From: Companilactobacillus allii
GTDB lineage: Bacteria > Bacillota > Bacilli > Lactobacillales > Lactobacillaceae
Direction: 5' to 3'
NCBI RefSeq assembly: GCF_001971585.1
Contig: NZ_CP019323.1
Coordinates: 1,292,053 to 1,356,052 of the forward strand
DNA length: 64,000 bases
Below the pieces are notes generated by a model. The model did not search any database and had not been told where the DNA came from. It saw only the letters and a list, made by a program, of their open reading frames with translations. Both the position numbers and the translations under genes were made by a program. This document shows, piece by piece, positions 1,931-18,285 of this stretch (the stretch's first letter is position 1; every line of letters starts with the position of its first letter).

Positions 1931-1968
1931 AAAAAGAGACTATATCAAGTACTTCTGACATAGTCCCT
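1931..1968 (-). terminator. Terminator downstream of tRNA-Sec
   Basis: An 11-bp imperfect stem (GGACTATGTCA/TGATATAGTCT on the minus strand) is followed by a U-rich run. It lies about 50 nt after the 3' end of the selenocysteine tRNA. Confidence 0.75.
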
Positions 1969-2018
1969 TCTTTAATTTTTAGTTTTGAATTGTTTTTAAC
2001 AATTCAAATTTATATACT

Positions 2019-2115
2019 TGGCGGGAATGTGTGGGAATCGAACCCACCTAAGAAGCTATTAACCCCTCATGCTAGTTTTGAAGACTAGAAGGAACACCAG
2101 AACCTATCCACTCCC
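2019..2115 (-). tRNA. selC: Selenocysteine tRNA, anticodon UCA
   Basis: On the minus strand the sequence begins GGGAGUG and ends CAUUCCCGCCA, with CCA encoded. The anticodon arm CUAGU-CUUCAAA-ACUAG exposes UCA, which reads UGA. A T arm GUGGG-UUCGAUU-CCCAC and a long variable region are present, and the 97-nt length is typical of tRNA-Sec and too long for most other tRNAs. It supplies Sec for the UGA codons in prdC and prdB, with SelA and SelB encoded in the facing operon. A plausible promoter (TTGACT, 16 bp, TAACAT) lies just upstream at 2124-2151 and places transcription start within a few bases of the tRNA 5' end. Confidence 0.95.
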
Positions 2116-2123
2116 AATAAATA

Positions 2124-2151
2124 ATGTTATCACAAAGATGGAGTAAGTCAA
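2124..2151 (-). promoter_or_regulatory. Probable promoter of tRNA-Sec
   Basis: On the minus strand TTGACT (2151-2146) and TAACAT (2129-2124) are separated by 16 bp. The predicted start falls about 2 nt before the tRNA 5' end. The remaining AT-rich stretch to 2366 must hold the prd promoter, but I could not pick a convincing sigma-70 or sigma-54 site there. Confidence 0.45.
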
Positions 2152-2366
2152 TGATATATTGTGACCATTATAAGACATTTTTATTTGTATATAGTGAATC
2201 ACTTTAAAAAAGATTCCTGGTATGAAAGCAATAAAAACGATTGCAAAAAAAAAATGATATTTTTTTGTGAAATCTTAAAAATTAGTAAAAAAAGCTTTGC
2301 AATTGTGATACCATGAACTTGCGAGTAGAAAAATGATTCGCTATTTCATTGAAAGGGGGTGAAATG

Positions 2367-3668
2367 ATGGAAAAAGTCACATATTTACTAAAACAGCATG
2401 TTGGTAAACCAGACTTACCTATTGTCGAGGTTGGTCAGCATGTTCTTAGAGGAGAGCTCATTGCAGAGCCAAATGGTTTGGGAGCAAATATTCACAGTAG
2501 TCTAACAGGTATCATTACTGATATTGAAGACGATCGAATTATTATGGATCCTGATGAAGAACAAGACATGGAAGACTTTGTAAAGATACCTGATTCAGAT
2601 GATTATTTAACAGATATCGCTAACGCAGGAGTTGTCGGTGCCGGTGGTGCTGGATTTCCTACAGCTGTAAAACTCTCGAGCAAAATTTCTGGAGGATACT
2701 TTATAGTTAATGCTGCTGAATGTGAACCTTTGCTTGCTCACAATACATTGCAAGAAGAGAAGTATGCAGGTCAAGTAGTTAGAGGCATGAAGTATCTAAT
2801 GGAAATTACAGATGCCAAAGAGGGATATATTGCAGTTAAGAAAATTCATCACGCTGCTGTTCTTGCACTTGGTAAGGCATGTAAAAACGAACCTAATATT
2901 AACGTAAAATTTCTTACAAATATGTATCCAGCTGGAGATGAACGTGTTGTTGTTCGTCAATTACTAGATGTTATTTTGAAACCTGGTGAATTGCCAAGTA
3001 AAGCTAATGCGGTTGTGCAAAACGTTGAAACAGTTAAACGTGTTGCTGAAGCAATCGAATTAAGAAAGCCATTTATCGATAAGGATATTACCCTTGATGG
3101 TCGTATTAAAGAAATATCGACTGTTTTTGAAAATATTCCTATTGGTTTATCTGCAAAACACTTTATTGATGCATCTGGTGGATACGTTAATCCACATGGT
3201 GACATTACAGTTGGTGGTCCATTTACTGGTCATACTGGTGATGAATCAACACCAGTTACTAAAACAACTGGTGGATTTATTGTAGCAATGCCATATCCAG
3301 TGGTACATAAAAAATTCGGAATTTTAGAGTGTGAGTGTGGTGGTCAAGAACCACGTCTTCGAGAAATAGTTGATAAGATGGGTGGAGAAGTAGTTTCTTT
3401 CCGCCGTTGCAAACGTATGGTTTTAGTAAATGGAAGATATCGGTGTAATCTACCCGGGATTTGTCCTGGGCAAGCTGATGCAGTTCTTGGAATGAAAAAA
3501 GAAGGCGCTGAAACAATATTGACTGGAACATGTCAAGATTGAACAAATACCGTTACAGGTATAGCTCCTCGTGTAGGAGTTTCAGTTTATCATTCAACAG
3601 ATCACGTTTTAAGAGCAGCAGGCCATAGACTATACCGAAAACTTCCAGATAGTTTTCAATCTAGATAA
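2367..3668 (+). CDS. prdC: Selenoprotein PrdC, RnfC-like electron carrier for proline reductase (UGA = Sec392)
   Basis: PrdC is the RnfC-like protein thought to pass electrons from NADH to D-proline reductase. The N-terminal part resembles the RnfC barrel-sandwich hybrid region. The nucleotide-binding-like glycine motif GAGGAGFPTAVKL follows at about residues 90-102. Near the C-terminus the frame reads TGTCQD, then UGA at 3540-3542, then 41 further sense codons to TAA at 3666-3668. The UGA is almost certainly Sec: prd context, tRNA-Sec and selAB are nearby, and the extension carries on as ordinary protein. A hairpin lies 4 nt after the UGA. The start is ATG 2367 (or 2364), served by the very strong SD AAAGGGGGTGA. 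A conventional annotation would stop at 3542 and lose the C-terminus. First gene of the operon. Confidence 0.92.
3547..3562 (+). promoter_or_regulatory. Candidate bacterial SECIS hairpin of prdC
   Basis: Stem ATACC/GGTAT around loop GTTACA begins 4 nt after the UGA. A second stem CTCCT/AGGAG follows at 3565-3579. Position and small apical loop fit a bacterial SECIS element read by SelB. Its activity is inferred. Confidence 0.55.
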
Positions 3669-3690
3669 CTTTCAAGGGAGGTAAGATGGT

Positions 3691-5631
3691 ATGTCTATAA
3701 CTAAAGAAACAGCAATGGATCATGCAAAGGATCCAGCAGTCTTATGTTGCAGAGCAGAAGGCGGAATTACAATTGAAGCACCAAATTTGGAGGATCCTTC
3801 ACTATTTGATGATTATGTGGATTCTGGTCTTTTGGAACTACCTGATGATGTTTTAAGAATTGAACAGGTTCTTGGAGCAACATTGAAGGTAACAACAGAT
3901 GCGTTAATTCCTTTGACACCAGCTAATGTTGATAACATTCAAGGTACAAATGATGATGCAGAGGATGATACATCTAATGAAACAGAGGAAGTATCATCTG
4001 AAGAACCTGCAGCTTCAAGCGTTGATCAAACAGCAACTGCAACACCGGTTGCGTCAGCAGTACAAACAGTAAGTGGTTCAAATGGTTCTATTAAAATTGA
4101 TATTGCGGAAGGTAAAGGTATTCACCTTGAAGTCCCTATATCAGGAATTGCAACCAGTCAAGTAAATCCAATAGCACCTACAGTTGATAAAACTCAAGAT
4201 GTCTCAGTGGATAATACAACATCAAATAATGACGTTTCATCAGATGATGAAACAGTTGAAACAAAAGTGGTTCGTGAATTAAAACGTGACCATTTTAAAA
4301 TTGAAACAGTTAAGTTTGGTGATAAGACAGAAATTGACGGTACAACTCTTACAATTAGAACACCAGAAGAACTTTGTAAAGATGCTGTCGCAACAGAAGA
4401 TCTTGTAAAAGATATGACTTTAGAAATCATTACACCTGACAAGTATGATGAATATAGTGAAACAGTCATGGATGTTCAACCAATAGCATGTAAGTCTGAC
4501 GGAGAAATTGGTTCAGGCGTAACGCGTGTGTTGGATGGAGTAGTGTTCATGCTAACCGGTACTGATGAAAATGGAGTTCAGATTGGTGAATTCGGATCAT
4601 CAGAAGGTGAATTAGATAAGAATATTCTTTGGGGTCGTCCAGGTTCTCCAGATAAAGGAGATATCTTGATTAAGGCTCAGGTAACAATTGAAGCTGGTCG
4701 TAACATGGAACGTGTTGGACCATTGAGCTCTCACAAAGCAGCTGACGTTATTACAGAAGAAATTAGAAAAGCACTAAAAAAGGTTGATAGTGGTTTAATT
4801 GACCATTCAGAAACACTTCAACAAAAACGTCATCCAAATCAAAAACGTGTCGTTATTGTTAAAGAAATCATGGGACAAGGTGCCATGCATGATAATTTAA
4901 TTATGCCTATTGAACCAGTGGGTACACTTGGTGCAAAGCCTAATGTAGATCTTGGTAATCTTCCCGTTGTTTTATCTCCACTAGAAGTTCTTGATGGTGG
5001 TATTCATGCCCTAACATGTATTGGACCAGCATCAAAAGAAACTTCTCGTCATTATTGGCGTGAACCAATGGTTACAGAAGCCATGAATGATGAAGACATT
5101 GATTTAGTTGGTGTTGTATTCGTCGGATCACCACAAGCAAATACTGAAAAATTCTATGTTTCTAAGAGACTTGGAATGTTAGTAGAAACTATGGGTATCG
5201 ATGGAGCAATCGTAACAACTGAAGGATTCGGTAATAACCATATTGATTTTGCATCGCACATTGAAGAAATTGGTAAACGTGGTGTCCCAGTTGTTGGTAT
5301 GTCATATTGTGCTGTTCAAGGTGCCTTAGTTGTTGGTAACAAATATATGGATGCAATGGTTGATAATAACAAATCTGCTCAAGGTATTGAAAATGAAATT
5401 TTGGAAAATAATACTTTATGTCCAGAGGATGCTACTAGAGCACTTGCAATGTTGGAAACTAAGATGGCCGGTGGAAAAATTGAAAAGGCTGAACGTAAAT
5501 GGAATCCAAATGTTAAAGAATCCAATATTAGTGTTATAGAAAAACATGATAATCGTAAAATTGAAATGGCTGAGAATGAACAATCAATGCCTAAGAGTAA
5601 AAAGAGAATAGAAATTTACGAAAAGGAATAA
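3691..5631 (+). CDS. prdA: D-proline reductase proprotein PrdA (pyruvoyl precursor)
   Basis: Precursor of the two non-seleno subunits of D-proline reductase, which cleaves D-proline to 5-aminovalerate. In characterised enzymes the proprotein self-cleaves at a cysteine that becomes the pyruvoyl cofactor, giving roughly 45 and 23 kDa chains. Here the sequence HALT|CIGPASKETS puts the likely site at Thr442/Cys443. That gives a 204-residue C-terminal chain, the expected size. Residues 1-75 are a conserved N-terminal part. Residues about 85-190 form an acidic Ser/Thr/Val-rich linker surrounding a short ordered stretch. Residues about 200-442 match PrdD and 443 onward match PrdE. Length 646. The start ATG has GGGAGG 9 nt upstream. 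It lies 22 bp after prdC. Confidence 0.93.
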   Translation: MSITKETAMDHAKDPAVLCCRAEGGITIEAPNLEDPSLFDDYVDSGLLELPDDVLRIEQVLGATLKVTTDALIPLTPANVDNIQGTNDDAEDDTSNETEEVSSEEPAASSVDQTATATPVASAVQTVSGSNGSIKIDIAEGKGIHLEVPISGIATSQVNPIAPTVDKTQDVSVDNTTSNNDVSSDDETVETKVVRELKRDHFKIETVKFGDKTEIDGTTLTIRTPEELCKDAVATEDLVKDMTLEIITPDKYDEYSETVMDVQPIACKSDGEIGSGVTRVLDGVVFMLTGTDENGVQIGEFGSSEGELDKNILWGRPGSPDKGDILIKAQVTIEAGRNMERVGPLSSHKAADVITEEIRKALKKVDSGLIDHSETLQQKRHPNQKRVVIVKEIMGQGAMHDNLIMPIEPVGTLGAKPNVDLGNLPVVLSPLEVLDGGIHALTCIGPASKETSRHYWREPMVTEAMNDEDIDLVGVVFVGSPQANTEKFYVSKRLGMLVETMGIDGAIVTTEGFGNNHIDFASHIEEIGKRGVPVVGMSYCAVQGALVVGNKYMDAMVDNNKSAQGIENEILENNTLCPEDATRALAMLETKMAGGKIEKAERKWNPNVKESNISVIEKHDNRKIEMAENEQSMPKSKKRIEIYEKE

Positions 5632-5658
5632 TTATCAAGAAAGTAAGGTTTAGTAGAT

Positions 5659-5961
5659 ATGGACAATTTTGACAAGCTAAATTATGCATCAACTGAAACT
5701 CTCTACGAAGGCATTATTACTGAAGTCACAGATGCTGGAGTATCTATTGATTTGAAAGGTAGATTAGGTGAACTTAAAATACCTAAGAGAATGTTAATTT
5801 GTGAACATGAACCACAGGTTGGTCATGAGGTTGGTTTTCTAATGTCTTATCCAGAAGTCCTATCTGAAGAGCCTAATGAAAAATACGTTAAGGCTATTGC
5901 CGACTATAAGAAGCATCAAGCCGAAATTAAAAAGCGTACCAAAGAAAGGCAGGAAGAATAA
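5659..5961 (+). CDS. Small S1-like protein of the proline reductase operon (CBO2463/CBO2479-like)
   Basis: A 100-residue protein. Residues about 13-65 (ending near MSYPEVL) look like a small beta-barrel of the S1/OB kind (YEGIITEVTDAGVSIDLKGR), followed by a charged Lys/Glu-rich helix at the C-terminus. A small gene at this position between prdA and prdB is a known feature of clostridial prd operons. I place it in that family from position and appearance, not from a search. Its stop overlaps the prdB start (TAATG), so the two are translationally coupled. Its role is unknown; assisting expression or assembly of the selenoprotein next door is only a guess. Confidence 0.75.
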   Translation: MDNFDKLNYASTETLYEGIITEVTDAGVSIDLKGRLGELKIPKRMLICEHEPQVGHEVGFLMSYPEVLSEEPNEKYVKAIADYKKHQAEIKKRTKERQEE

Positions 5962-6686
5962 TGGTATTAAAAAAATATGATGGCCTACAGTCCGAAATAT
6001 TTGTTCCAATTACTCCTAAACCTGTTTGGGCACCTGTAACTAAAGATTTAAAAGATATGAATATTGCAATTGCCACTGCAGCAGGTGTTCATTTAAAAAC
6101 AGATAAGAGATTTAATTTAGCAGGAGATACAACATTCCGTGAAATTCCTTGGGATGCCAAAGATGATGAATTAATGGTATCTCATGGTGGATATGATAAT
6201 AGTGATGTTAATAAAGATATTAACTGTATGTTTCCTTTATCAAGACTACGTGAAATAGCTGATACAGGTTACATCAAAGGTGTTGCCCCCGTTGAATATG
6301 GATTCATGGGTGGAGGTGGAGATCAAGAGGTCTTCACTAATGAAACTGGTCCAATTATTGCTCAAAAACTAAAGGATGAACATGTTGACGGCGTCATCAT
6401 GACAGCTGGTTGAGGAACTTGTCATAGAACTGCCGTGATCGTGCAGAGAGCAATCGAATCCATTGGGATTCCAACAATTTTAATAGCAGCTTTACCTCCC
6501 GTAGTTCGTCAAAGTGGTTCACCTAGAGCCGTTGCCCCTCGTGTACCAATGGGAGCAAATGCTGGAGAACCGCATAATATCGAAATGCAGACTGGAATAG
6601 TTAGAGATACATTGAAGCAACTGGTTGAAATACCATCAGCTGGTAAGATTGTACCTTTACCATATGAATATATAGCTAAGGTTTAA
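5961..6686 (+). CDS. prdB: D-proline reductase selenoprotein subunit PrdB (UGA = Sec151)
   Basis: Catalytic selenoprotein subunit of D-proline reductase; its selenol attacks the alpha carbon of D-proline held by the PrdA pyruvoyl group. The frame runs from ATG 5961 through UGA at 6411-6413 to TAA at 6684-6686, giving 241 residues with Sec at 151. Around the UGA the protein reads VIMTAG-U-GTCHRTAVIV, a Sec-x-x-Cys arrangement typical of the family. The glycine-rich YGFMGGGGDQE lies about 40 residues before it. Without recoding, the gene would be called as two fragments, 5961-6413 and a GTG-start piece at 6435-6686. It is coupled to the upstream small gene by a 1-nt overlap. Confidence 0.94.
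6430..6446 (+). promoter_or_regulatory. Weak candidate SECIS hairpin of prdB
   Basis: Stem CTGC/GCAG with a 9-nt loop lies 16 nt after the Sec UGA. The spacing fits a bacterial SECIS, but only 4 bp are clear, so this needs folding to support it. Confidence 0.35.
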
Positions 6687-6748
6687 TTTAGCTACACAAA
6701 AGGAGGGTTTAACAACTCTTCTTTTGTTGTTTATAAGGAGCTATTAAT

Positions 6749-7489
6749 ATGAAAAAAAACGTATTAAATATAAAAGCGTTTTCCATTCAATCAGTAAGAA
6801 TTGGTTCCGATTATCATTTGACTAGTAATAGTTTGGAGATTCCTGACCATCCGTTGGATAAAATTGATGATCGATTAAAATTATTCGATGTTAGATTGGT
6901 AGATCCTAATGATTGTCATTTTAGGATTAATACAATTATGGACGTTATTCCAATCTCTACGAAAGTATTGGGAGAAATTGGAAGTGGATTATCACATACG
7001 CTGACCGGTGTAAGTGTAATTCTAACAGGTGCAGATGAGACTGGAATTCAACTTCATGAATTTGGATCATCCGAAGGATATCTGGATGAAAAAATAAAAT
7101 TTGATCAAGATGGAACACCAAGTTCTGATGATGTGGTTATTTTATTAAATGTTGTATTAAAGAAAGATTTTGAATTCAATCGTGAAACTAGCGAAATGGT
7201 GTTTAAAGTAGCAGATAACTTTATTCAGCCAATCAGAGATCAATTAAAAATGATCAGTGGTAGAGAGGCTAGCGAAGATTTTGAATATGTCGATAATTCA
7301 AATCCCAATAAGCCTAAAGTGGCAATTGTAAAAGAGGTTGCTGGACAGGGCGCAATGTATGACAATATTTTGTTTGCTAAGGAACCGAGTGGTATGGAGA
7401 AAGGAATTTCTATTATTGATATGGACAATATGCCTGTTTTACTTACAGCTAATGAATATCGAGATGGGGCTATAAGGGCATTAGTTTGA
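6749..7489 (+). CDS. prdD: PrdD, homologue of the PrdA central region
   Basis: A 246-residue paralogue of PrdA residues about 200-442. Shared blocks include MDV.PI..K..GEIGSG, LTG.DE.G.Q..EFGSSEG, VKE..GQGAM.DN and the ending DG.I.AL. It stops with UGA exactly where PrdA carries the pyruvoyl cysteine, so it has no cleavage site of its own. In clostridial prd operons PrdD is an accessory protein related to the PrdA proprotein. Its function is not settled; a role in forming the PrdA pyruvoyl group is possible. The start ATG has SD AAGGAG 8 nt upstream. The 62-bp gap before it holds a CAAAAG/CTTTTG hairpin (about 6697-6726) that could modulate readthrough. Confidence 0.85.
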   Translation: MKKNVLNIKAFSIQSVRIGSDYHLTSNSLEIPDHPLDKIDDRLKLFDVRLVDPNDCHFRINTIMDVIPISTKVLGEIGSGLSHTLTGVSVILTGADETGIQLHEFGSSEGYLDEKIKFDQDGTPSSDDVVILLNVVLKKDFEFNRETSEMVFKVADNFIQPIRDQLKMISGREASEDFEYVDNSNPNKPKVAIVKEVAGQGAMYDNILFAKEPSGMEKGISIIDMDNMPVLLTANEYRDGAIRALV

Positions 7490-7543
7490 AAATCAATTAA
7501 GAATCTTTTCCTATATTGCAAAAATGTTAGGAGGTAATTAGTA

Positions 7544-8023
7544 ATGGGAATTGGACCATCTACTAAAGAAACCACACTACACCATTTTCAGGATCCACTA
7601 GTAAGAACTGTTGCCAATGATCCTGATATAGATTTTCAAGGAGTACTAGTAGTAGGAACTCCACAAGATAATTATTTAAAAAATTTGGTTGGTAAAAGAT
7701 GTGCAATTTGGTTAGAGGCCATGAGAACCAACGGAGTAATACTTTCAGCCGATGGTTGGGGTAACTCTGACGTGGATTTCATGAATACCATGACTGAGAT
7801 TGGTGATAGAGGCATAAGTGTTGTAGGTCTTAAATTTATTGGTAAACAGGCTGGTTTTGTTGTTGAAAATGAATATACAAAATTTGTTTTAGATATTAAT
7901 AAATCTAGTGAAGGAATAGAAACAGAAGTGGTTGGTGAGAATAATTTGAATGAAAAGGATTCTCACAAGGCGCTAGGTTTGTTAAAGCTCAAAATGAGGC
8001 ATGATAATCAACAAGTACATTAA
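7544..8023 (+). CDS. prdE: PrdE, homologue of the PrdA C-terminal (pyruvoyl) chain
   Basis: A 159-residue paralogue of the PrdA C-terminal chain. Its start MGIGPSTKETT lines up with CIGPASKETS just after the PrdA cleavage site. Further matches are the VVGTPQ, GDRGISVVG and IETEV...N regions. It therefore begins right where PrdD ends, so prdD and prdE together recreate a PrdA split at the autoproteolysis point. It lacks the residue that would become pyruvoyl, so it is unlikely to be catalytic. SD AGGAGG lies 9 nt before the ATG. Function unproven. Confidence 0.85.
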   Translation: MGIGPSTKETTLHHFQDPLVRTVANDPDIDFQGVLVVGTPQDNYLKNLVGKRCAIWLEAMRTNGVILSADGWGNSDVDFMNTMTEIGDRGISVVGLKFIGKQAGFVVENEYTKFVLDINKSSEGIETEVVGENNLNEKDSHKALGLLKLKMRHDNQQVH

Positions 8024-8041
8024 ATCTAAGGGGAAAATATT

Positions 8042-9058
8042 ATGCAATTTAATAGATCAATTACAGTAATCGACTCACATACAGCAGGTGAAGCCGCAAG
8101 AATTGTTACTGGTGGAATGCCAAAATTAATTGGTAATACCATTGCCGAAAAAAAGCAATATTTGATTGACCATTATGACAAAATCAGGACGTCCATTATG
8201 TTGGAACCAAGAGGACATAGCGAAATGTTTGGAGCATTTCTAATGGAACCGATTAATCCTGAAGCTGATTTTGGAATTGTTTTTATGGATACTGGTGGTT
8301 ATTTAAACATGTGTGGTCATAATACAATAGCTGCTGTTACGGCAATTGTTGAAACAGGCATGGTTGATGTTGAACCTGGTGCAAAGGATAAAAATGTCAA
8401 CCTAGATACTCCAGCTGGGCTAGTACGTGCTGTGGCTCATTTGCGAGGTGATCACGAAGTTGAAAGTGTGTCATTTAGAAATGTTCCATCATTCTTATAC
8501 AAGAAAGATGTAGAAGTAGATGTTCCTGATATAGGTAAAATAAAACTTGATATTTCGTTTGGTGGGAGTTTCTTTGCAATTTTACCTGTATCAGAGGTAA
8601 ATGAAAAAATAGATACACATAATGAACAAAAATTGGCTGAAGTTGGTATGAAAGTTCTTCATGCGGTTAATGAGCAAGTAAAGGTACAGCATCCAGAACT
8701 AAGTCATATCAAGACTGTTGATTTAGTTGAAATGTATGGTGAACCAAAGGATGATGAATCAACACTTCAAAATGTAGTTGTTTTTGGAGATGGACAAGTT
8801 GACAGATCTCCTTGTGGTACTGGTACAAGTGCAAAATTAGCGACATTGTACAGTAAAGATAAGTTGAAAATGAACGAAAAATTTGTTTATGAGAGTATTT
8901 TAGAGACCAAATTTTATGGACGTGTGGTAGAAGAGACAAAGGCAGGAAATATCCCAGCCATAATTCCTGAAATTACTGGTTCAGCCTGGATTACAGGATT
9001 TAATAACTTGGTATTTGATCCAACAGATCCATTAACAAATGGTTTTGAACTTAAATAG
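8042..9058 (+). CDS. prdF: Proline racemase PrdF
   Basis: Cofactor-independent racemase interconverting L- and D-proline, which feeds D-proline to PrdA/PrdB. It shows the proline racemase signature DTGGYLNMCGHN with the first catalytic Cys91. The second Cys258 lies in DRSPCGTGTSAK; this pair of cysteines acts as the two-base system. The N-terminus RSITVIDSHTAGE and length (338) are typical. The related 4-hydroxyproline epimerases share the fold, but the operon context favours proline as substrate. It lies 18 bp after prdE with SD AAGGGG. Confidence 0.93.
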   Translation: MQFNRSITVIDSHTAGEAARIVTGGMPKLIGNTIAEKKQYLIDHYDKIRTSIMLEPRGHSEMFGAFLMEPINPEADFGIVFMDTGGYLNMCGHNTIAAVTAIVETGMVDVEPGAKDKNVNLDTPAGLVRAVAHLRGDHEVESVSFRNVPSFLYKKDVEVDVPDIGKIKLDISFGGSFFAILPVSEVNEKIDTHNEQKLAEVGMKVLHAVNEQVKVQHPELSHIKTVDLVEMYGEPKDDESTLQNVVVFGDGQVDRSPCGTGTSAKLATLYSKDKLKMNEKFVYESILETKFYGRVVEETKAGNIPAIIPEITGSAWITGFNNLVFDPTDPLTNGFELK

Positions 9059-9070
9059 GGAGTGATTGTA

Positions 9071-9973
9071 ATGGTCTTAAGAATAGTTCAGATTACGTTG
9101 GCCGTCTTATTCTTATATGTTGCCATAATGTTTGGTAGAGATTATATAAAGCATAAGGATGTAAAGGATGGTAGTATTCCCGTTGCAGCGGGAATTGGAT
9201 TTATAGCCAATTTCTTTGATGCATTAGGAATTGGTAGTTATGCGCCAACTACATTAATGTTCAAAATCACTAAATACTTGAAATCTGACAAATTGATTCC
9301 AGGAACATTAACCGTAGCTTGTTCGATTCCGGTAATTGTTGAAGCAGTTATGTTTACTAGAACAATTAAAGTAGAAGGAACAACATTAATTTCTATGGTT
9401 ATTGCAGCTGGCTTGGGATCATTGATTGGTTCCAAAATAATGAATAAATTTGATGAAAAAATTATTAGAATTATTATGGGAATTGCACTAGTAGTTACAG
9501 CAGTATTAATGCTTTTATCACAGCTAGGAGTTCTTAGTGCTTTGGGTTCAGGAAATAAATCTATTGGACTTCATGGTATTGCTTTAGTTATTGCAATTGT
9601 TGGTAACTTTTTCCTCGGGGCATTGATGACAGCTGGTGTTGGTTTATACGCACCTTGCATGGCACTAGTTTATATGTTAGGAATGAGTCCAGCAGTGGCT
9701 TTTCCTATTATGATGACGTCATGTGCAGTATTAATGCCGATAGCTAGTAGAGAATTCATTAAATCTGGTAATTACAGTCGTAAAGGTAGTCTTGGTATTA
9801 CCATTGGTGGAATTATTGGTGTTGCAATTGCGGTTTACTTTGTTAAGAGCCTTGATTTATACATATTGACATGGTTAATTATCGTTGTTGTTACATACAC
9901 AGGTGCATCAATGTTATATCAAGGATTAAAGCAAAAAAATAAAGCTGTTACTGCCGAAAGTGAAGAAGCCTAA
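9071..9973 (+). CDS. TSUP (TauE/SafE) family membrane permease
   Basis: A hydrophobic protein of 300 residues with about eight membrane segments arranged as two repeats. Each repeat has the glycine-rich G.GIGFIANFFDALGIGSYAP / MTAGVGLYAPCMAL style motif of the TauE/SafE sulfite-exporter family. Family members move small anions such as sulfite, sulfonates or organic acids. Here it sits between prdF and selD in the same operon, so a role in moving a selenium oxyanion, proline or the 5-aminovalerate product is possible but unproven. I start it at ATG 9071, with GGGAG 7-11 nt upstream, rather than the upstream GTG at 9062. Confidence 0.75.
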   Translation: MVLRIVQITLAVLFLYVAIMFGRDYIKHKDVKDGSIPVAAGIGFIANFFDALGIGSYAPTTLMFKITKYLKSDKLIPGTLTVACSIPVIVEAVMFTRTIKVEGTTLISMVIAAGLGSLIGSKIMNKFDEKIIRIIMGIALVVTAVLMLLSQLGVLSALGSGNKSIGLHGIALVIAIVGNFFLGALMTAGVGLYAPCMALVYMLGMSPAVAFPIMMTSCAVLMPIASREFIKSGNYSRKGSLGITIGGIIGVAIAVYFVKSLDLYILTWLIIVVVTYTGASMLYQGLKQKNKAVTAESEEA

Positions 9974-10005
9974 AAAATTGTTTATGTACAGAAAGGAAAA
10001 TTATT

Positions 10006-11028: not shown

Positions 11029-11040
11029 TTAACGTATAAG

Positions 11041-11107: not shown

Positions 11108-11151
11108 AGTAAATCAGAGGGTATCTATATAAAAAACGAGGAGAATTGATT

Positions 11152-11745
11152 ATGGAAAAAATAAATGCATTGGGAAAAGTTTGTCCAACACCAATTATTA
11201 TGTCAAGAAAGGCCTTAAAATCTACAGATGAAATTGTGATTACTGTTGATGATGATATGGCACCACAAAACTTAAAAAAGTTGGCTGATCAAAAAGGTTA
11301 TGACTATAAAGTAGATAAGAAAGATGATGGAACATTTGACGTTTATCTAAAAAATGATCCTGACAAAGTCAATGAAGAAGCAAAATCAAAGCTTAATGAT
11401 CAAGGTGAGTCATATGTTGTAGTTATCAATACTGACGTTATGGGACATGGTGATGATACTTTAGGGAAAAACTTATTACATATGTTTGTTTATTCTCTTA
11501 CAGAGCAAGATGTTCTGCCAGATAAGATTCTTTGCTATAACGGTGGAGTTAAGTTATTAGTTGAAGGCTCAGATTATTTGGATGATTTAAAAGCTCTAGA
11601 AGAAGCGGGAGTTGAAATTTCTGGATGTGGTGCCTGTCTTGATTATTATGGACTCAAAGATAAACTTGCAGTTGGTTCGATTAGCAATATGTTTGAAATT
11701 GTGCAAGTAATGACGAAAACAAACCGTGTTGTAAGACCAGACTAG
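11152..11745 (+). CDS. yedF: YedF-type selenium metabolism protein (TusA domain plus DsrE-like domain)
   Basis: The N-terminal 70 residues are a TusA/SirA sulfur-carrier domain with the invariant GKVCPTPI motif (Cys about residue 10). The C-terminal part (about 80-197) is DsrE/F-like and ends with a GCGACLDYYGL cysteine pair. This fusion occurs in bacteria that have selD and is annotated as a selenium metabolism YedF protein. It probably carries or relays selenide or persulfide to SelD. The start is ATG 11152 with SD CGAGGAGA 7 nt upstream. It lies 10 bp before the DUF3343 gene. Confidence 0.88.
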   Translation: MEKINALGKVCPTPIIMSRKALKSTDEIVITVDDDMAPQNLKKLADQKGYDYKVDKKDDGTFDVYLKNDPDKVNEEAKSKLNDQGESYVVVINTDVMGHGDDTLGKNLLHMFVYSLTEQDVLPDKILCYNGGVKLLVEGSDYLDDLKALEEAGVEISGCGACLDYYGLKDKLAVGSISNMFEIVQVMTKTNRVVRPD

Positions 11746-11755
11746 AGGAACAAGA

Positions 11756-12025
11756 ATGAAAAATGAATTTGGATTAGTGACATTTAAATCGACCCATCAA
11801 GCAATAAAGGTTAAAGAATTACTTGATGGAAATGAAGAATATAAGGCAAATATTATTTCTACACCTGGACAAATTTCTGCTGGTTGTGGAATGAGTTTAA
11901 GATTCAACTATGATAAAAAAGAATCTTTAAAAGAAATGCTAAATGATAAAAGTCTAGGGTATCAAAATATCTATAAAGGAACTCGTTCTATAGGTGTTAG
12001 AAGTACATATACGCTGGATAATTAG
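11756..12025 (+). CDS. DUF3343 small protein, putative Se/S carrier
   Basis: An 89-residue protein with the DUF3343 look: N-terminal FGLVTFKSTHQAIKVKELL, then a conserved central ISAGCGMSLRF containing the single cysteine at about residue 43. Members of this family recur next to selD, yedF and the EF2568-type aminotransferase, and are proposed to handle selenium or sulfur. It lies between yedF (10 bp) and selB (8 bp). No experimental role is known to me. Confidence 0.8.
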   Translation: MKNEFGLVTFKSTHQAIKVKELLDGNEEYKANIISTPGQISAGCGMSLRFNYDKKESLKEMLNDKSLGYQNIYKGTRSIGVRSTYTLDN

Positions 12026-12033
12026 GTGATACT

Positions 12034-13938
12034 ATGGAAAAGATTGGTCAAGATCAAATAATTATTGCTACTGCTGGTCACGTTGACCACGGGAAAACAA
12101 CTTTAATTAAAGCGTTAACAGGTATCGACACAGATACAACAGCTGCTGAAAAAAAGCGTGGTTTAACAATCAACTTGGGATTCGCATTTTTTGATTTGCC
12201 ACATCATCAACAAGTTGGAATAGTTGATGTTCCAGGACATGAAAAATTTTTAAAAAATATGATTGCCGGATTAAGCGGTATTGATCTGGTTTTATTAGTT
12301 ATTGATGTTAACGAAAGTATAATGCCACAAACTCGTGAGCATGTTGATATTATGTCGCTATTGGGAATTGAAAACTACATTGTAGTCTTAAGTAAGATTG
12401 ATACTGTTGATGATGTGTTTAAAGAACTAGTTGTTGATGATGTACAAAATTTTCTAGATGAACATAATATTAAAGCTCCAATTATAGGAGTAGATGCAAT
12501 TAGTGGTACTGGGATGAAGGAACTTATTTCAGTAATGGATGAAAAGGTTGATACCATTACACATACAAATAATAATGGTATACCAAGAATTAATGTCGAT
12601 AGATCCTTCTCTATCAAAGGATTTGGGACAATTGTTACTGGGACTTTACTCGAAGGTGAAGTTCATAATGGTATGACTTTAGAGGTATTTCCTAGTGGTA
12701 AGGAAACTAAAATTAGAAATATTCAAGTTCATGATAAAAATGTAACTGAGGCACTTCCTGGGACTAGAACGGCAATTAATTTAACAAATTTAAAACCCGA
12801 TGAAATAAAAAGAGGAAGTGTTCTAACAACATCGAAAAATATTAAACCTACATGGATGCTAGATGTAGATTTTAAAATGTTACCAGATAAAGATGCTGAC
12901 TATATTAGACTTTGGAGCAGAGTTAGGGTTTATCTTGGTGCTAGAGAGATTATAGCAAGGGTTGTTCCTTTAGGAGAGGATGAAATTGATCCTAGTAAGA
13001 ATAATTATTTACAATTAAGACTGGAAGAACCAGTTGCTGTTAAAAAGGGAGATCGCTACATATTACGCACATATTCTCCAATGAATTTAATTGGTGGCGG
13101 TACAGTCCTTGAACCAAATCCCACTAAGCATCGTCGCTTTAATGACCAAATTTTGAAGAATCTTTCAGTTCAGGCTTCAGGTAATCAAGAAGATATGCTA
13201 TTAGATTTCTTGAATAATCAAAGTGAACTGGGCTGCACTAAAGAAGGCATTGCAGATTATTTAAATATCTCGATTCAAAGTGTCAATGAAGTGGTTGATT
13301 CATTGTTGTCTGAAAATAAGGTTGTAAATGTTCTAGACGTAGTGGTATCTAAATCTAGATTGGATGAGTTCAAAAATAATATTTTAGATACAGTATGGAA
13401 TTATCATAAAAAACATCGTTTACAAAAAGGCATGCCTAAAGAGGAATTACTTGTTAATTTTAAAAACATTATATCTGGAAAGATAATTGAAAACGTGTTA
13501 AATCAAATGATTGGCGATAATCAAATAAAAATTTTGGGATCCATTGTTTCAGCAAGTGATTTTGAAGTTAAATACAATGATTATCAGAGAAAAGCTTATA
13601 ACCAAATCATTGATTCATTGAAAGCAAATCCCTTAATGCCACCCAATGATGATGATATTTTACAATCGGATAAGACAAAAATTGAAGTTTTTAAATCATT
13701 AGAGGGTAATGAAATAATCAGACTAAGTGAACAAAATGTAATGTTAAAATCGGCCTTTGAATCGGCTGTTGTTAAAGTTGTGGATTATTTGAAAGAAAAT
13801 CAAACTATGACTTTGGCAGAATTTAGGGACTTAACAGGTGCTAGTCGTAAGTATGGAATGTTGATATTAGAAAGTATGGACAAACAAGGAATTACTAGAC
13901 GTAAGGAAAATATGAGAGTTTTAGTAAAGAAGGAATAG
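12034..13938 (+). CDS. selB: Selenocysteine-specific elongation factor SelB
   Basis: GTPase that brings Sec-tRNA(Sec) to UGA codons next to SECIS hairpins. G motifs seen: GHVDHGKTT (about residues 15-23), DVPGHE (about 65-70) and LSKID (about 118-122). The switch/GI region GLTINLGFAF is the SelB form rather than EF-Tu. Domains II/III follow to about 360. The C-terminal winged-helix repeats (about 380-634) bind the SECIS RNA. Length 634 is normal. The final stop overlaps an alternative GTG of the next gene. Confidence 0.97.
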   Translation: MEKIGQDQIIIATAGHVDHGKTTLIKALTGIDTDTTAAEKKRGLTINLGFAFFDLPHHQQVGIVDVPGHEKFLKNMIAGLSGIDLVLLVIDVNESIMPQTREHVDIMSLLGIENYIVVLSKIDTVDDVFKELVVDDVQNFLDEHNIKAPIIGVDAISGTGMKELISVMDEKVDTITHTNNNGIPRINVDRSFSIKGFGTIVTGTLLEGEVHNGMTLEVFPSGKETKIRNIQVHDKNVTEALPGTRTAINLTNLKPDEIKRGSVLTTSKNIKPTWMLDVDFKMLPDKDADYIRLWSRVRVYLGAREIIARVVPLGEDEIDPSKNNYLQLRLEEPVAVKKGDRYILRTYSPMNLIGGGTVLEPNPTKHRRFNDQILKNLSVQASGNQEDMLLDFLNNQSELGCTKEGIADYLNISIQSVNEVVDSLLSENKVVNVLDVVVSKSRLDEFKNNILDTVWNYHKKHRLQKGMPKEELLVNFKNIISGKIIENVLNQMIGDNQIKILGSIVSASDFEVKYNDYQRKAYNQIIDSLKANPLMPPNDDDILQSDKTKIEVFKSLEGNEIIRLSEQNVMLKSAFESAVVKVVDYLKENQTMTLAEFRDLTGASRKYGMLILESMDKQGITRRKENMRVLVKKE

Positions 13939-13940
13939 TG

Positions 13941-15098
13941 ATGATTTATTTTGATAATGCTGCAACCACTGCTATAAAGCCTGAAAGCGTTGGTAAAACA
14001 ATGTCAGACGTTTTAACTAGTGGTCATTTTGGTAACCCAGGACGTGATTCTTCAAACTATAGTGTTAATAGCAGCTTATTAGTAGAACAAACAAGAGAAA
14101 AAATAGCGCAACTATTCAATGTCCCTTCGAGCGATTTTGTCATGTTTACTAGCAATGCAACTGATAGCTTAAATACTACTTTGAAAGGATTACTAAAACC
14201 TGGAGATCATGTTATTTCTACAAATTACGAACATAATTCCGTTATAAGGCCTTTAGAGCAATTAAGAAGAAATAATGTAGATATTGATTATGTTCCATTT
14301 GATACTGAAACTGGAGTTATAAATATCGAAGATTTTGAGACGAGAATTAAAAGTAATACTAAAGCTATTGTTTGTACATATGCTTCAAATGTAACTGGTT
14401 ATGTTTTACCTATTGATAATATTGGTAAACTTTGTAAGAAATATAACTTATTATTTATTGTTGATGCCGCACAGAGTGCGGGTTTTATTGATATTGATAT
14501 TCAAAAGCAAGGTATTGATGTACTTTGCTTTACAGGTCACAAATCGCTTTATGGACCACAAGGTACAGGTGGAATTTGCTTGAAAGAGAGTCTACCAATT
14601 GAACCCTTAAAAAGTGGTGGAACGGGCATTGATTCATTTAATAGTAATATGCCAGATGAATTTCCGACTAGATTGGAAGCGGGGACTATGAATGTTCCCG
14701 GTATTGCAGGATTATATGAAGGAATTGATTATATACTTAAATACGGATTAAATAATATTCGTCAATATGTCATTGGCTTAACTGATGAAGCAATAGATGG
14801 GTTGGATAAATATCCTGAAGTAAAGATTTATACTCCCAGAACAGGCTTAAGAACTGGTGTTATTGCTTTTAATGTCGGTGATTTAAATTCTGCTGAAGTT
14901 GGTCAGTGGCTATGGGATGAATATCAAATTGCAAATAGAACAGGTGCACATTGTGCACCAAAAGTCTTGGAGAGCTTTAATCTGGTAGAACAAGGTATTG
15001 TCAGATTATCTTTTTCAAGTTTTAATACCTCTGAAGAAATAAAGGTATTTCTAGGAGCAATGGAAGAACTTATTATTGAATACAGAAAGGAAATCTAA
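13941..15098 (+). CDS. Cysteine desulfurase-like class V aminotransferase (EF2568 type)
   Basis: PLP-dependent class V aminotransferase of 385 residues. PLP lysine 201 lies in FTGHKSLYGPQG, and a catalytic-type Cys338 in RTGAHCAPK matches the desulfurase active-site cysteine. N-terminal IYFDNAATT is standard. The subgroup found with selD/yedF/DUF3343 is related to Enterococcus EF2568 and is thought to release selenium or sulfur from (seleno)cysteine for SelD. ATG 13941 has SD AAGGA 6 nt upstream. Its TAA overlaps the selA ATG by 1 nt. Confidence 0.87.
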   Translation: MIYFDNAATTAIKPESVGKTMSDVLTSGHFGNPGRDSSNYSVNSSLLVEQTREKIAQLFNVPSSDFVMFTSNATDSLNTTLKGLLKPGDHVISTNYEHNSVIRPLEQLRRNNVDIDYVPFDTETGVINIEDFETRIKSNTKAIVCTYASNVTGYVLPIDNIGKLCKKYNLLFIVDAAQSAGFIDIDIQKQGIDVLCFTGHKSLYGPQGTGGICLKESLPIEPLKSGGTGIDSFNSNMPDEFPTRLEAGTMNVPGIAGLYEGIDYILKYGLNNIRQYVIGLTDEAIDGLDKYPEVKIYTPRTGLRTGVIAFNVGDLNSAEVGQWLWDEYQIANRTGAHCAPKVLESFNLVEQGIVRLSFSSFNTSEEIKVFLGAMEELIIEYRKEI

Positions 15099-16477
15099 TG
15101 GATTCTAAAATATTACTTAGAAAATTACCTTCTGTAAATGATTTATTAAATTTGGATAAAATTGAATTTTGGAACCAAAATCATGATTTAGTAGAAATTA
15201 AATCAGCAATAACTCAGGTCTTGAATGAAACACGTCGAAGTATTCTAACTAATGAATTTCAAAATGATATTGATATTCCTTATTTTGAGAATGCAATAGA
15301 AAAAATTTTAAGAGATAATAGAGTAAGTGAGTTACAACCTGTAGTTAATGCAACTGGTGTTATTTTACATACGAATTTAGGACGTGCAAAATTAGCTATT
15401 GAGGCACAAGAGAGCCTTGCTTTAATGTCAGGGCATTCTACTAACCTAGAATATGATATTACTCAAGGAAAACGTGGTGACCGCTATAAGGTAATTGGTA
15501 AGTTGATTCATGAATTAACAGGCGCAGAGGATGCCATTGTTGTTAATAATAATGCTGCGGCTGTAATGCTTGTTTTAAGTACCTTATTTAACGGAAAAGA
15601 AGTTATTATTTCACGTGGCCAATTAGTTGAAATAGGTGGATCCTTTAGAGTCCCAGATATTATCACTTCTACTGGTGGTGTTTTAAAAGAAATTGGCACG
15701 ACTAATAAAACTCATATAAAAGATTATGAGGAAGCAATTAATGAAGATACTGGTGGAATACTATTGGTTCACACTAGCAATTATAAGTTGATTGGATTTA
15801 CTGAGACACCTAATTCTAATGAGCTAGCAAAAATTGCTCATAAAAATGATTTACCCTTGGTTAATGATCTTGGAAGTGGTTTGATGATTGATTTAAATAG
15901 CTACGGTTTATCTGAACCGACTATTAAACAAGAAGTTGAAAACTGTGACCTTGTTATGTTTTCTGGAGATAAATTATTGGGAGGCCCACAAGCTGGTATT
16001 ATAGCTGGCAAGAAAAAGTATATTGATAAATTGAAGCATAATCAGCTATTGAGGGCCCTACGTGTAGATAAAGCTACTTTGGCAGCTTTAGTTGCAACAT
16101 TAAAATTGTATAGAGATCCTAAAAAGGCTATTAAAAAAATTCCCGTATTACGAGATTTAACCATAAGTAAAGCTGAATTACAGTATAAGGCAGATACTTT
16201 AAAAGATAGAATTGACAGTGATACTAATTTTTCCGCTGAAGTTATAAATGGGACAACAGTCGTTGGGGGAGGAGCTTTTCCTGATGTAAAACTTCCAACA
16301 TTGTTAATAGATTTAAAATCCAATATTTCAGCAACAAAATTAAATGAATTATTAGCGTATGCTAAGTATCCAATAATTGCTCGTATTAGTCATGAAAATG
16401 TTTTGCTGGATATTAGAACAATTGATGAATCGGAGTTTGAAAAGGTCATTTCTGCATTGAATGAAATTAAAAACTAA
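15098..16477 (+). CDS. selA: L-seryl-tRNA(Sec) selenium transferase
   Basis: PLP enzyme converting Ser-tRNA(Sec) to Sec-tRNA(Sec) using selenophosphate. It shows the SelA N-terminal helical domain (LRKLPSVNDLL). The core signatures are VVNATGVILHTNLGRA (about 84-99) and NLEYD...RG. The PLP lysine is K292 in MFSGDKLLGGPQAG. Length 459 is typical. It is translationally coupled to the preceding desulfurase-like gene. Together with SelB, SelD and tRNA-Sec this completes the bacterial Sec pathway. Confidence 0.97.
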   Translation: MDSKILLRKLPSVNDLLNLDKIEFWNQNHDLVEIKSAITQVLNETRRSILTNEFQNDIDIPYFENAIEKILRDNRVSELQPVVNATGVILHTNLGRAKLAIEAQESLALMSGHSTNLEYDITQGKRGDRYKVIGKLIHELTGAEDAIVVNNNAAAVMLVLSTLFNGKEVIISRGQLVEIGGSFRVPDIITSTGGVLKEIGTTNKTHIKDYEEAINEDTGGILLVHTSNYKLIGFTETPNSNELAKIAHKNDLPLVNDLGSGLMIDLNSYGLSEPTIKQEVENCDLVMFSGDKLLGGPQAGIIAGKKKYIDKLKHNQLLRALRVDKATLAALVATLKLYRDPKKAIKKIPVLRDLTISKAELQYKADTLKDRIDSDTNFSAEVINGTTVVGGGAFPDVKLPTLLIDLKSNISATKLNELLAYAKYPIIARISHENVLLDIRTIDESEFEKVISALNEIKN

Positions 16478-16531
16478 GTAAGACATATTAATAAGAATCT
16501 TGAAATGATTTTTAGAAGGGAGGAAAGCAAA

Positions 16532-18235
16532 ATGAGCAAAAAAGTAATAGTAGTAGGTGGAGTAGCAGGCGGTGCATCAGTTGCTGCTAGGGTTAGAAGA
16601 CTAGATGAAGATGCTGAAATCACCATGTTTGAAAAGGGTCCTAATGTTTCTTTTTCTAATTGTTCATTACCATATCATTTGAGTGGAACCATTAAAAATG
16701 CCGATGATATTGTGTTGATGCATCCTGAACAATTCAAACGTCAATACAATATCGATGCTGTGGTTAATACTGAAGTGATCGACGTTGATCATGCTGAAAA
16801 AAATGTAACAATCAAGAATGTTTCAACTTCACAGACTAGCAAAGTAGACTATGACGAATTAGTCTTATCTCCCGGGGCAGTTCCAATTGTGCCCAATTCA
16901 ATCAAGGGTGTTCATGGCAACAATGTGTTTACAGTTCGAAATGTTGAAGACATTAAAGCTTTGCAAGGATATATTGAGGAAACAAATGCCAAGAATATCA
17001 CTGTTGTTGGTGGTGGATTTGTTGGACTTGAAGTTATGGAGAATCTTGTTGAAGCAGGTAAAAATGTGTCATTAGTTGAAGCGGCTCATCATATCATGGC
17101 TACTATTGATGATGACATGGCACAAATTGCCCATAAAGAATTACTTGATAATGGTGTCAATTTGATTGTGGATGACGCTGTATCAGCTATTTCTAGTACT
17201 AATGTGACTTTATCATCGAACAAAGTTATTCCCACTGACGTTGTTGTGATGGCAATAGGCGTTAAGCCAGATGTTTCTTTAGCCGAGAAGATTGGTATAA
17301 AGCTTGGTAGTACAGGAGCAATCGCTGTAAATCAAAATTATCAAACTAATCTACCTAACATATATGCGGTTGGTGATGCAATCGAAGTTACTAATATGAT
17401 CACAAGAAAGAAACAGCGACTTAACTTAGCTTTTCCAGCTCAAATGGAAGCACGCAATGCCGCAGATCACATGTATGGGAGAACAGTTACTCAGCGTGGT
17501 GTTATTGGTTCGCAAGTAATCAAGCTCTTCAAGATGAATGTGGCATCAACTGGATTAACTGAGAAACAATGTCTAGATAATGGGATTAGCTATGACATAG
17601 CAATGGTTATTCCGAAAGATAAAGTTGCTTTGATGCCGAATGCCAAGCCTCTCTATTTCAAGTTGATTTTTGGAACACCATCAGGTGAAATCCTTGGTGC
17701 ACAAGCAGTTGGTGAAAGTGGAGTTGATAAACAAGTTGATATTATTGCTACAATGATATCAATGCACGGACATGTCGAGGACTTACAAAATCTAGAATTA
17801 TGTTATCAACCAATGTTCAGTACAGCTAAGAATGCCGTGAACATGGCCGGGTTAGTCGCTACAAATATTCTTAATGGTGAATTCAAACAAGTCCGTATGT
17901 CAAAAGTCCGAGGTTTAGTTGAGAGTGGAGCCATGATAGTAGATGCTCGTGAACCTAATGAATATAAAGAAGGACACATTAAGGGAGCTATAAATATTCC
18001 ACTAAGTGAATTCAGAGATAGATTGGATGAGATTCCACATAATATTCCAGTTTATGTTCATTGTTTATCAAGTCAGCGTAGCTATAATATGGTACGTGCA
18101 CTTGGTAATTTAGGGTATACCAATATATATAATATCGTGGGTTCGTTTTTAGGATTGTCTGAATATGAATATTACCATGATACTGTTGATGATAGAGATC
18201 CAATTATTGATGGATATAGATTTGATTTAATGTAA
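16532..18235 (+). CDS. CoA-disulfide reductase-like flavoprotein with C-terminal rhodanese domain
   Basis: A 567-residue FAD/NAD(P)H oxidoreductase. The FAD motif VIVVGGVAGGASVAAR is at about 5-20 and a redox-active Cys44 lies in SFSNCSLPY, as in CoA-disulfide and persulfide reductases. A second nucleotide motif TVVGGGFVGLE lies near 155-165. The rhodanese domain spans about 465-555, with active-site Cys511 in VHCLSSQRS. Such fusions reduce persulfides or polysulfides. As last gene of the selenium operon it may supply selenide or handle selenosulfides (inference). The start is ATG 16532 with SD GGGAGGAAA, not the ORF extension at 16505. Confidence 0.87.
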   Translation: MSKKVIVVGGVAGGASVAARVRRLDEDAEITMFEKGPNVSFSNCSLPYHLSGTIKNADDIVLMHPEQFKRQYNIDAVVNTEVIDVDHAEKNVTIKNVSTSQTSKVDYDELVLSPGAVPIVPNSIKGVHGNNVFTVRNVEDIKALQGYIEETNAKNITVVGGGFVGLEVMENLVEAGKNVSLVEAAHHIMATIDDDMAQIAHKELLDNGVNLIVDDAVSAISSTNVTLSSNKVIPTDVVVMAIGVKPDVSLAEKIGIKLGSTGAIAVNQNYQTNLPNIYAVGDAIEVTNMITRKKQRLNLAFPAQMEARNAADHMYGRTVTQRGVIGSQVIKLFKMNVASTGLTEKQCLDNGISYDIAMVIPKDKVALMPNAKPLYFKLIFGTPSGEILGAQAVGESGVDKQVDIIATMISMHGHVEDLQNLELCYQPMFSTAKNAVNMAGLVATNILNGEFKQVRMSKVRGLVESGAMIVDAREPNEYKEGHIKGAINIPLSEFRDRLDEIPHNIPVYVHCLSSQRSYNMVRALGNLGYTNIYNIVGSFLGLSEYEYYHDTVDDRDPIIDGYRFDLM

Positions 18236-18250
18236 TTTTAATTTTGCGAG

Positions 18251-18285
18251 AGGATGTGACAGTTACGTCACATCCTCGTTTTTTT
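18251..18285 (+). terminator. Strong terminator closing the prd-sel operon
   Basis: A perfect 10-bp stem AGGATGTGAC/GTCACATCCT with a 6-nt loop is followed by CGTTTTTTT. It lies 15 bp after the flavoprotein stop and separates the island from the tau genes. Confidence 0.92.

Follow-up and report, generated by a model that had tools for sequence, protein, structure and literature searches.

A prd–sel cassette with two in-frame UGA codons

The window, by which we mean the whole stretch of 64,000 nucleotides of Companilactobacillus allii DNA that was analysed (contig NZ_CP019323.1, positions 1,292,053 to 1,356,052), carries near its left end a cassette of genes for D-proline reductase (prd) and for the use of selenocysteine (Sec; sel). 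The contig is 2.5 Mb long, and the genome has a completeness of 99.9% and a contamination of 0.03%. The cassette forms the right-hand part of a larger block, and we put at about 85% the probability that this block is a 34.9-kb, one-piece chromosomal insert that encodes a Sec-dependent D-proline reductase together with its entire supply chain. Gene families were judged by the curated NCBIfam cut-offs, and bits are given as score over cut-off in the following list of cassette features.

2019–2115, minus strand: tRNA-Sec (selC), divergent from prdC (ARAGORN; RF01852, 67.1 bits)
2349–3668, plus strand: prdC, selenoprotein, UGA at 3540 (TIGR04481, 558.6/490)
3563–3581, plus strand: SECIS-like hairpin of prdC (the 49–60-nucleotide folds that contain it have z of about −2.6)
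3691–5631, plus strand: prdA proprotein (TIGR04480, 958/700)
5659–5961, plus strand: CBO2463/CBO2479-domain protein (NF041553, 92.3/50)
5961–6686, plus strand: prdB, selenoprotein, UGA at 6411 (TIGR04483, 399/300)
6432–6449, plus strand: SECIS-like element of prdB (codons +7 to +12 after the UGA)
6749–7489, plus strand: prdD (TIGR04482, 352/320)
7544–8023, plus strand: prdE (matches TIGR04480 positions 415–565, the C-terminal part of PrdA)
8042–9058, plus strand: prdF, proline racemase family (best model NF010576, 508 bits, cut-off 556)
9062–9973, plus strand: TauE/SafE-like permease (PF01925)
10006–11028, plus strand: selD, Cys form (TIGR00476, 375/125)
11146–11745, plus strand: yedF (TIGR03527, 214/110)
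11756–12025, plus strand: Se/S carrier-like protein (DUF3343; PF11823)
12034–13938, plus strand: selB (TIGR00475, 349/242)
13938–15098, plus strand: cysteine desulfurase or selenocysteine lyase-like protein (TIGR01977, 417/377)
15098–16477, plus strand: selA, final gene of the inserted block (TIGR00474, 558/268)

All of the parts that a first-pass annotation of this DNA had named (tRNA-Sec, selA, selB, selD, the prd genes and the accessory selenium genes) were recovered by scans for open reading frames (ORFs), tRNAs, Rfam families and protein families, with the racemase under its cut-off. PrdC, PrdA, PrdB, PrdD, SelD, YedF, SelB and SelA all passed the curated cut-offs, and the Sec insertion set of SelA, SelB, SelD and tRNA-Sec was complete. 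The product of 13938–15098 missed the cut-off of the SclA model NF040779 (302/525 bits) and was filed as desulfurase family only, no model of its own matched PrdE in the NCBIfam scan, and neither PrdA nor PrdB had a relative in the PDB by sequence at E 0.001. The presumed cleavage site of PrdA is Cys443 in the motif TCIGPA, and this cysteine is invariant in nine aligned PrdA proteins. For comparison we used 86 prd loci, which were gathered through their PrdA and are thus not a random sample; most of them have a TauE-like permease downstream of the prd genes, and most, not all, have a PrdF-type racemase.

The proposal that two of the proteins are UGA-containing selenoproteins held up, as both UGAs lie at the known Sec positions of PrdC and PrdB. 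The prdC UGA at 3540 is codon 398, in the motif CQDU, and the prdB UGA at 6411 is codon 151, in the motif AGUGTCHR (UxxC = UGTC). At the PrdB site, 85 of the 86 loci have the UGA in the same motif, the remaining one (L075) stopping before prdB, and a UGA at the PrdC site was found by pattern in 72 of the 86, a few tails being unreadable. Within Companilactobacillus, CQDU is present in all nine rows with a readable PrdC end (two of which, L024 and L189, probably belong to a single species); in genome G397 (L191) PrdC is shortened.

Because the synonymous codons behind the UGAs are fixed well beyond what the protein would need, we take the codon-fixed stretches behind both of them as putative Sec insertion sequence (SECIS) elements. 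In prdB, the commonest codon at positions +7 to +12 accounts for 87, 86, 72, 90, 100 and 92% of 39 rows (one per genus label), compared with 36–87%, with a middle of ~55%, at the other prdB codons with a conserved residue. In prdC the commonest codon at positions +8, +9, +10 and +12 accounts for 77, 97, 87 and 94% of 31 rows, and the prdC hairpin is more stable than shuffled sequences (z of about −2.6). A natural control is provided by genome G225, which has a Cys-type PrdB (58% identical) and no SelB match, and in which the conserved codon stretch is absent.

The block is inserted at a site that is empty in close relatives

The limits of the block were determined by blastn against four SelB-negative congeners (G361, G402, G075 and G213) in which the site is empty. 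DNA similarity to the relatives ends at base 1619 of L106, the stretch adjoining the window on its left (as judged from the furthest-reaching relatives), and returns at window position 16,514, which gives an inserted block of ~34.9 kb that starts 18.4 kb left of the window and ends at 16,513.

1–16513, no strand assigned: window part of the inserted block, whose left 18.4 kb lie outside the window (L106, bases 1620–20000)
16505–18235, plus strand: FAD disulfide reductase with a rhodanese domain, outside the insert and at the same place in all four relatives

The first-pass annotation had set the island at 1931–18285, bounded by terminators, and had thus missed its true start; at its right end it had included the gene at 16505–18235 and a terminator-like site at 18250–18277, both of which belong to the old neighbourhood. 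The long ORF of the disulfide reductase begins just ahead of the junction, and its product is 87–88% identical in three relatives and 66% identical in G213. At the empty site, which contains no prd or sel gene in any of the four relatives, the disulfide reductase gene lies near a left-flank gene that we take to be nucleoside deoxyribosyltransferase-like; the two are directly adjacent in G213 and are separated in G361, G402 and G075 by a regulator-like gene and between one and three permease-like genes. Further right are a TauABC-like transporter, cupredoxins, CopA and a lactate dehydrogenase-type gene, a set that is complete in G361 and G402 and partial in G075 and G213; the disulfide reductase, the TauABC-like transporter, the cupredoxins and CopA are old neighbours of the site. 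A right-flank gene (25478–26509) is 93–96% identical in the four relatives. The GC fraction is 0.33–0.34 in the inserted part, compared with 0.37 in the remaining window, and a search for phage carriers returned a single weak match only. With one block at a site that is empty in four close relatives, there is good support for the earlier suggestion of a transfer as one unit.

The remainder of the block

Immediately left of the cassette, still within the inserted block, are a second prolyl-tRNA synthetase gene (proS) and its leader.

154–1593, minus strand: second prolyl-tRNA synthetase, type I (TIGR00408, 547/437)
1640–1848, minus strand: T-box leader of the second proS (RF00230, 107/93 bits), with CCU (Pro) at the specifier position

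The CCU specifier is our own reading of the RF00230 alignment. The housekeeping prolyl-tRNA synthetase, of type II, is encoded elsewhere (G000:C1:1777915-1779597). A proS gene also lies near prd in ten other loci, those of Vagococcus and Listeria included, with 42–48% identity.

The left part of the block, in L106, carries a DsrE-family gene and a module resembling ydjXYZ/ynjBCDE, with a rhodanese-like protein (probably secreted, in our reading), YdjY, two VTT-domain membrane proteins and an ABC transporter with a binding protein that matches PRK11622, which we take to be YnjB. The left part also carries a TIGR04283 glycosyltransferase (186/182 bits), a kinase-like protein, a TIGR04282-like protein under the cut-off (118/134), a nucleoside hydrolase-like protein and a small rhodanese. 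Then come a proline iminopeptidase (514/400 bits) and a POT-family peptide transporter, followed by an M24 (prolidase-type) peptidase, a C69 peptidase and a permease.

Among the 36 Companilactobacillus genomes of our genus sample (which includes the window's own genome), a close form of the iminopeptidase is present in 8 of 10 SelB-positive versus 0 of 26 SelB-negative genomes. It is 77–81% identical in seven of the nine other SelB-positive congeners, and the same transporter lies beside it in six of seven short stretches; a form with 62–65% identity is the only one in eight SelB-negative congeners and in G288, and G397 has none. Because the tree offers only two independent contrasts on supported branches (four on all branches), a phylogenetic test of this association between iminopeptidase and Sec is powerless. 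Iminopeptidase and peptide-transporter genes also lie upstream of prdC in 13 Enterococcus loci.

The ynj module (L106 2225–12902; also L125 and L140–L150) comprises the rhodanese, YdjY, the VTT proteins, the YnjB-type ABC transporter and two 'arsenosugar' glycosyltransferase-like genes. In the family-wide sample of 397 Lactobacillaceae genomes from 40 genera, its TIGR04283 gene is present in 7 of 7 SelB-positive and 0 of 19 SelB-negative congeners, and it lies at a third place in the six congeners examined. It is also present in five SelB-negative genomes of other genera (G050, G081, G108, G170 and, weakly, G381), two of which score under the TIGR04283 cut-off and four of which carry the ynj module, so the module does not need Sec, and a selenium-specific role for it was rejected. 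Among the literature matches listed for ynjE and ydjX, none tied them to selenium. The prd operon of Loigolactobacillus iwatensis (L035, L125) is located within the ynj module.

Distribution in the family and the genus

Use of Sec had been described as rare in lactic acid bacteria, which stands at the level of the family, where SelB was found in 12 of the 397 genomes and 4 of the 40 genera, and does not stand within the genus, where it was found in 10 of the 36 genomes. Eleven of the 12 have a Sec-containing PrdB; the twelfth is G033. PrdB-type matches occur in 13 of the 397 genomes, with G033 having a distant Grd-like match only and the SelB-negative G225 having the only Cys-type PrdB among them.

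In all nine other SelB-positive congeners, a prd–sel cassette with the same gene order as in the window lies between alr and a CBS-domain gene, and in the six cassettes that were scanned at both ends the tRNA-Sec gene is likewise divergent ahead of prdC. That site is empty in the window's genome, in which only 47 bp separate alr from the CBS gene (L139). A GrdA gene with a UGA is present in the same nine congeners and absent from the other 27 of the 36, the window's own genome included. Glycine reductase is thus a second Stickland system in nine Companilactobacillus genomes, with a UGA in grdA and, where it was read, also in grdB (L017–L022). In one of the nine, G397 (L191 2828–11429), prdA, prdB, prdD, prdE and prdF are gone from between the shortened prdC and the permease. 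Because G397 keeps selA, selB and selD, and its glycine reductase selenoprotein is still there, the Sec trait outlived the proline reductase in this genome.

Beyond the genus, prd genes followed by selD, yedF and selB also occur in Enterococcus, Vagococcus, Listeria and others. A second, Cys-type set of PrdC, PrdA and PrdB genes (L123 14093–20000, L070 1285–6000 and L091 819–6000; 41–58% identical by gene) is found in a SelB-negative Lactobacillaceae genome, and Megasphaera cerevisiae and Asaccharospora have it as an additional copy; it may reduce proline without selenium, or its substrate may be a different one.

Phylogeny of the block

The closest PrdA proteins (86–89% identical in the conserved part) are in six named loci, all of Companilactobacillus. 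In trees of PrdA, SelB, SelD and the joint ynj proteins, the window's genome grouped with its congeners with support of 100, and it was the first branch among them in three of the four, SelD leaving the placement open. (The PrdA, SelB and SelD trees were quick searches with support from the Shimodaira–Hasegawa-like approximate likelihood-ratio test, SH-aLRT, only.) Because the trees group the genes of the block with those of the congeners, either donor and recipient are closely related or the genus has had the set for a long time. The clostridial source implied by the first-pass annotation is not borne out, and a fresh transfer from Clostridia is rejected by the PrdA, SelB and SelD trees. Loigolactobacillus was also considered as a source of the ynj module, as suggested by identity (53–82% to G068 versus 43–81% to six congeners), and was rejected by the joint ynj tree, which placed the window's genome with the congeners (100/99).

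In a wider PrdA tree, Lactobacillaceae, Enterococcaceae, Gemella, Listeria, Turicibacter and a Streptococcaceae bin fell in one part, which also held Megasphaera and relatives and one Defluviitaleaceae bin (57 rows, support 97 by SH-aLRT in a quick search); the remaining clostridial rows were separate from it. The prd–sel loci of Listeria farberi and Enterococcus termitis (L029 and L030) were near-identical on the PrdA, SelB and SelD trees, a likeness that points to a probable recent exchange between genera.

The RpoB tree of 35 congeners placed the window's genome beside the SelB-negative G213 (98% identity, support 93/89) and away from the other SelB-positive genomes. At least four changes of the Sec trait are needed on this tree.

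Proposed working of the encoded system

From these genes we infer an enzyme activity, an electron path and a mode of regulation, in which the best reading of the sequence is that proline would serve as an electron sink. The peptide transporter and the proline peptidases would supply proline, which PrdF would convert to D-proline. Cleaved PrdA would hold the D-proline through its pyruvoyl group, and the ring would be opened by the Sec of PrdB, yielding 5-aminovalerate, while PrdC, with its CxxU motif, would relay electrons from NADH to PrdB. SelA, SelB, SelD and tRNA-Sec would decode both UGAs, aided by the RNA elements downstream of each. This chemistry (the pyruvoyl group of PrdA, the Sec of PrdB, electrons from NADH through PrdC, and 5-aminovalerate as product) follows that given for C. 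sticklandii in PMC3091704. RnfA was not found in the window's genome, and we therefore expect the benefit to be recovery of NAD+, which would free pyruvate for acetate and ATP.

The T-box would sense uncharged tRNA-Pro and turn on the second prolyl-tRNA synthetase once proline is depleted by the reductase. D-proline reductase has been argued to drain the proline pool of Clostridioides difficile (PMC13410763), and the T-box and second synthetase would fit a counter-measure to such a drain. A bolder and rather doubtful extension is that the whole block could be a 'proline breathing kit', in which peptide import and cutting, proline reduction and Sec supply would be combined with a T-box-switched synthetase as a safety valve protecting translation. 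If true, the safety valve would be a purpose-built answer to the 'proline addiction' that has been proposed for C. difficile, and would allow that idea to be tested in a harmless food bacterium.

The insert brings together a genetic-code extension and a Stickland enzyme on one lactobacillus chromosome, with close relatives that lack it available for comparison. Its host is a safe one in which to test whether proline acts as an electron sink, what the drain on proline costs, and how the Sec trait is gained or lost, and proline-consuming lactic acid bacteria might compete for the electron acceptor that C. difficile favours.

Alternative explanations

The gene content, the UGAs, the codon conservation, the T-box match and the insertion are direct observations. 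We favour a single insertion from an unsampled relative, because there is a single empty site, loci that are apart elsewhere are joined here, and GrdA is missing. Instead, the ancestor of the genus might have had the genes, which were then kept and gathered at a new place in this lineage and lost from its closest relatives and from the greater part of the genus. That course would explain why PrdA, SelB, SelD and the ynj module place the window's genome beside the copies of its congeners, and why the PrdA identity to them (86–89%) is only slightly above that of the ordinary gene at 25478–26509 (82–85% in the nine SelB-positive congeners). It requires the gathering of loci that are separate in the congeners, however, and the empty site of the nearest relatives counts against it, as does the presence in all nine other SelB-positive congeners of the GrdA that is missing here. 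RpoB also rejects one clade of all SelB-positive genomes plus G353 (approximately unbiased test, p 0.013; G353 was added after inspection of the tree). We consider ancestral retention possible but distinctly the weaker explanation. That the island is decayed or silent, with the UGAs acting as stops and proline not being reduced, would have a precedent within the genus in G397, which lost prdA to prdF while keeping selA, selB and selD; in the window, however, the reading frames are intact, the codon-fixed stretches are kept and the four Sec genes are complete, which makes decay improbable. A clostridial contaminant or chimaera, which the first-pass annotation had itself raised as a danger, has a negligible chance of being the explanation, given a 2.5-Mb contig with 0.03% contamination, both flanks of which match four congeners, and island genes that group with those of lactobacilli.

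Several findings weigh against a working, singly inserted Sec-dependent reductase with its own supply chain. With respect to the insertion, no mobility family was found among the scanned ORFs of the block, its two ends share no 11-mer in either direction, and the sister placement to the genes of the congeners would also be given by inheritance plus relocation. With respect to Sec, cysteine replaces the Sec of PrdC in L088, L091, L092, L102 (first hit), L103, L120, L121 and L123, and the prdB hairpin is no stabler than shuffled sequences (z 0.04 and 0.73). With respect to supply and regulation, the racemase PrdF scores under its curated cut-off (508 versus 556 bits); PrdF, the transporter and the peptidases could serve other purposes; and none of the ten other prd loci with a proS gene has a T-box at the Rfam threshold.

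Further features of the cassette

The gap between prdD and prdE (7489 to 7544) coincides with the place of PrdA's cleavage cysteine, and PrdD and PrdE look like two parts of a PrdA minus the reactive cysteine. Their likeness to PrdA has been remarked upon before (PMC3091704).

Nearly every prd locus retains the gene for the CBO-domain protein between prdA and prdB. The product of this gene is predicted to be a small OB-like barrel with a long helix (AlphaFold, pLDDT 87), for which Foldseek gave no match at E 0.001 and which resembles OB-like barrels (IF5A, S1, cold shock and HypC) at Z 5 to 7. These likenesses may reflect a common arrangement only, and the predicted fold would perhaps suit a role in enzyme maturation or RNA binding. 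A maturation enzyme, PrdH, is named in PMC13410763, and the CBO-domain protein may conceivably be its counterpart.

The leader of prdC (window 2302–2362, nine congener rows) is conserved as TGTGATA..ATGAACnTGCGA...TTCGC. Its TTCGC can pair either with a GCGAA on its upstream side or with the ribosome-binding stretch that follows, with energies that are not decisive, and the leader is possibly an RNA switch or a leader peptide.

Comparison with known systems

The island is not unique: the same kind is already in print for Lactobacillus (now Ligilactobacillus) salivarius (PMC4165912) and for plasmids of Terrisporobacter (PMC10564238). Region R1 of megaplasmid pMP1046A of L. salivarius JCM1046 (PMC4165912) was compared here in strain LPM01 (NZ_LT604075, L103), which shares tRNA-Sec, prdA-cbo-B-D-E-F, the TauE-like permease, yedF, DUF3343, selB, the desulfurase, selA, prdC and selD, and which also has a rhodanese-like gene and a permease beside the island. 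It differs in being megaplasmid-borne, in having prdC and selD at the far end, a PrdC with Cys, and an extra amino acid permease and yedE, and in that the annotation of the 42-kb stretch shows neither a prolyl-tRNA synthetase nor a proline-specific peptidase. The prdB of pMP1046A is listed as a probable pseudogene in the 2014 paper (PMC4165912). The Terrisporobacter plasmids pTG1, pTP1 and pTM1 (PMC10564238; L105) share prdC-A-cbo-B, prdD-E, selA/B/C/D and the desulfurase on one 21-kb replicon, and differ in being clostridial plasmids with a PrdA identity of ~58%; their racemase is chromosomal and their PrdC is without Sec, according to that paper.

Within the genus, the alr/CBS cassette of the nine congeners shares the order from prdC to selA (in G397 minus prdA to prdF), with 53–90% identity by gene. 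It differs from the window's in its site, in the GrdA alongside, and in that no proS was seen beside the cassette; in addition, the ynj module (six congeners checked) and the peptidase genes (seven) are at separate places. The locus of the Enterococcus avium group (L104) has Xaa-Pro peptidases, a proline iminopeptidase and a peptide transporter directly ahead of prdC and the same prd order; in Enterococcus raffinosus the iminopeptidase, the transporter and one Xaa-Pro peptidase are 73, 70 and 71% identical, and a second Xaa-Pro peptidase is 33% identical. It differs in lying on a megaplasmid, with its selenium genes ~12 kb further on and no tRNA-Sec in the 42-kb stretch. In C. sticklandii and C. 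difficile, the Sec genes presumably lie apart from the prd operon. The operon itself has the enzyme parts and the proposed chemistry in common with the window (PMC3091704), and C. difficile has an Rnf complex (PMC6384274), unlike the window's genome with its lack of a detectable RnfA. No joint mention of Companilactobacillus and proline reductase was found in the open-access papers searched. This kind of island is already known, and what is new here is a larger, chromosomal member with a clean empty site.

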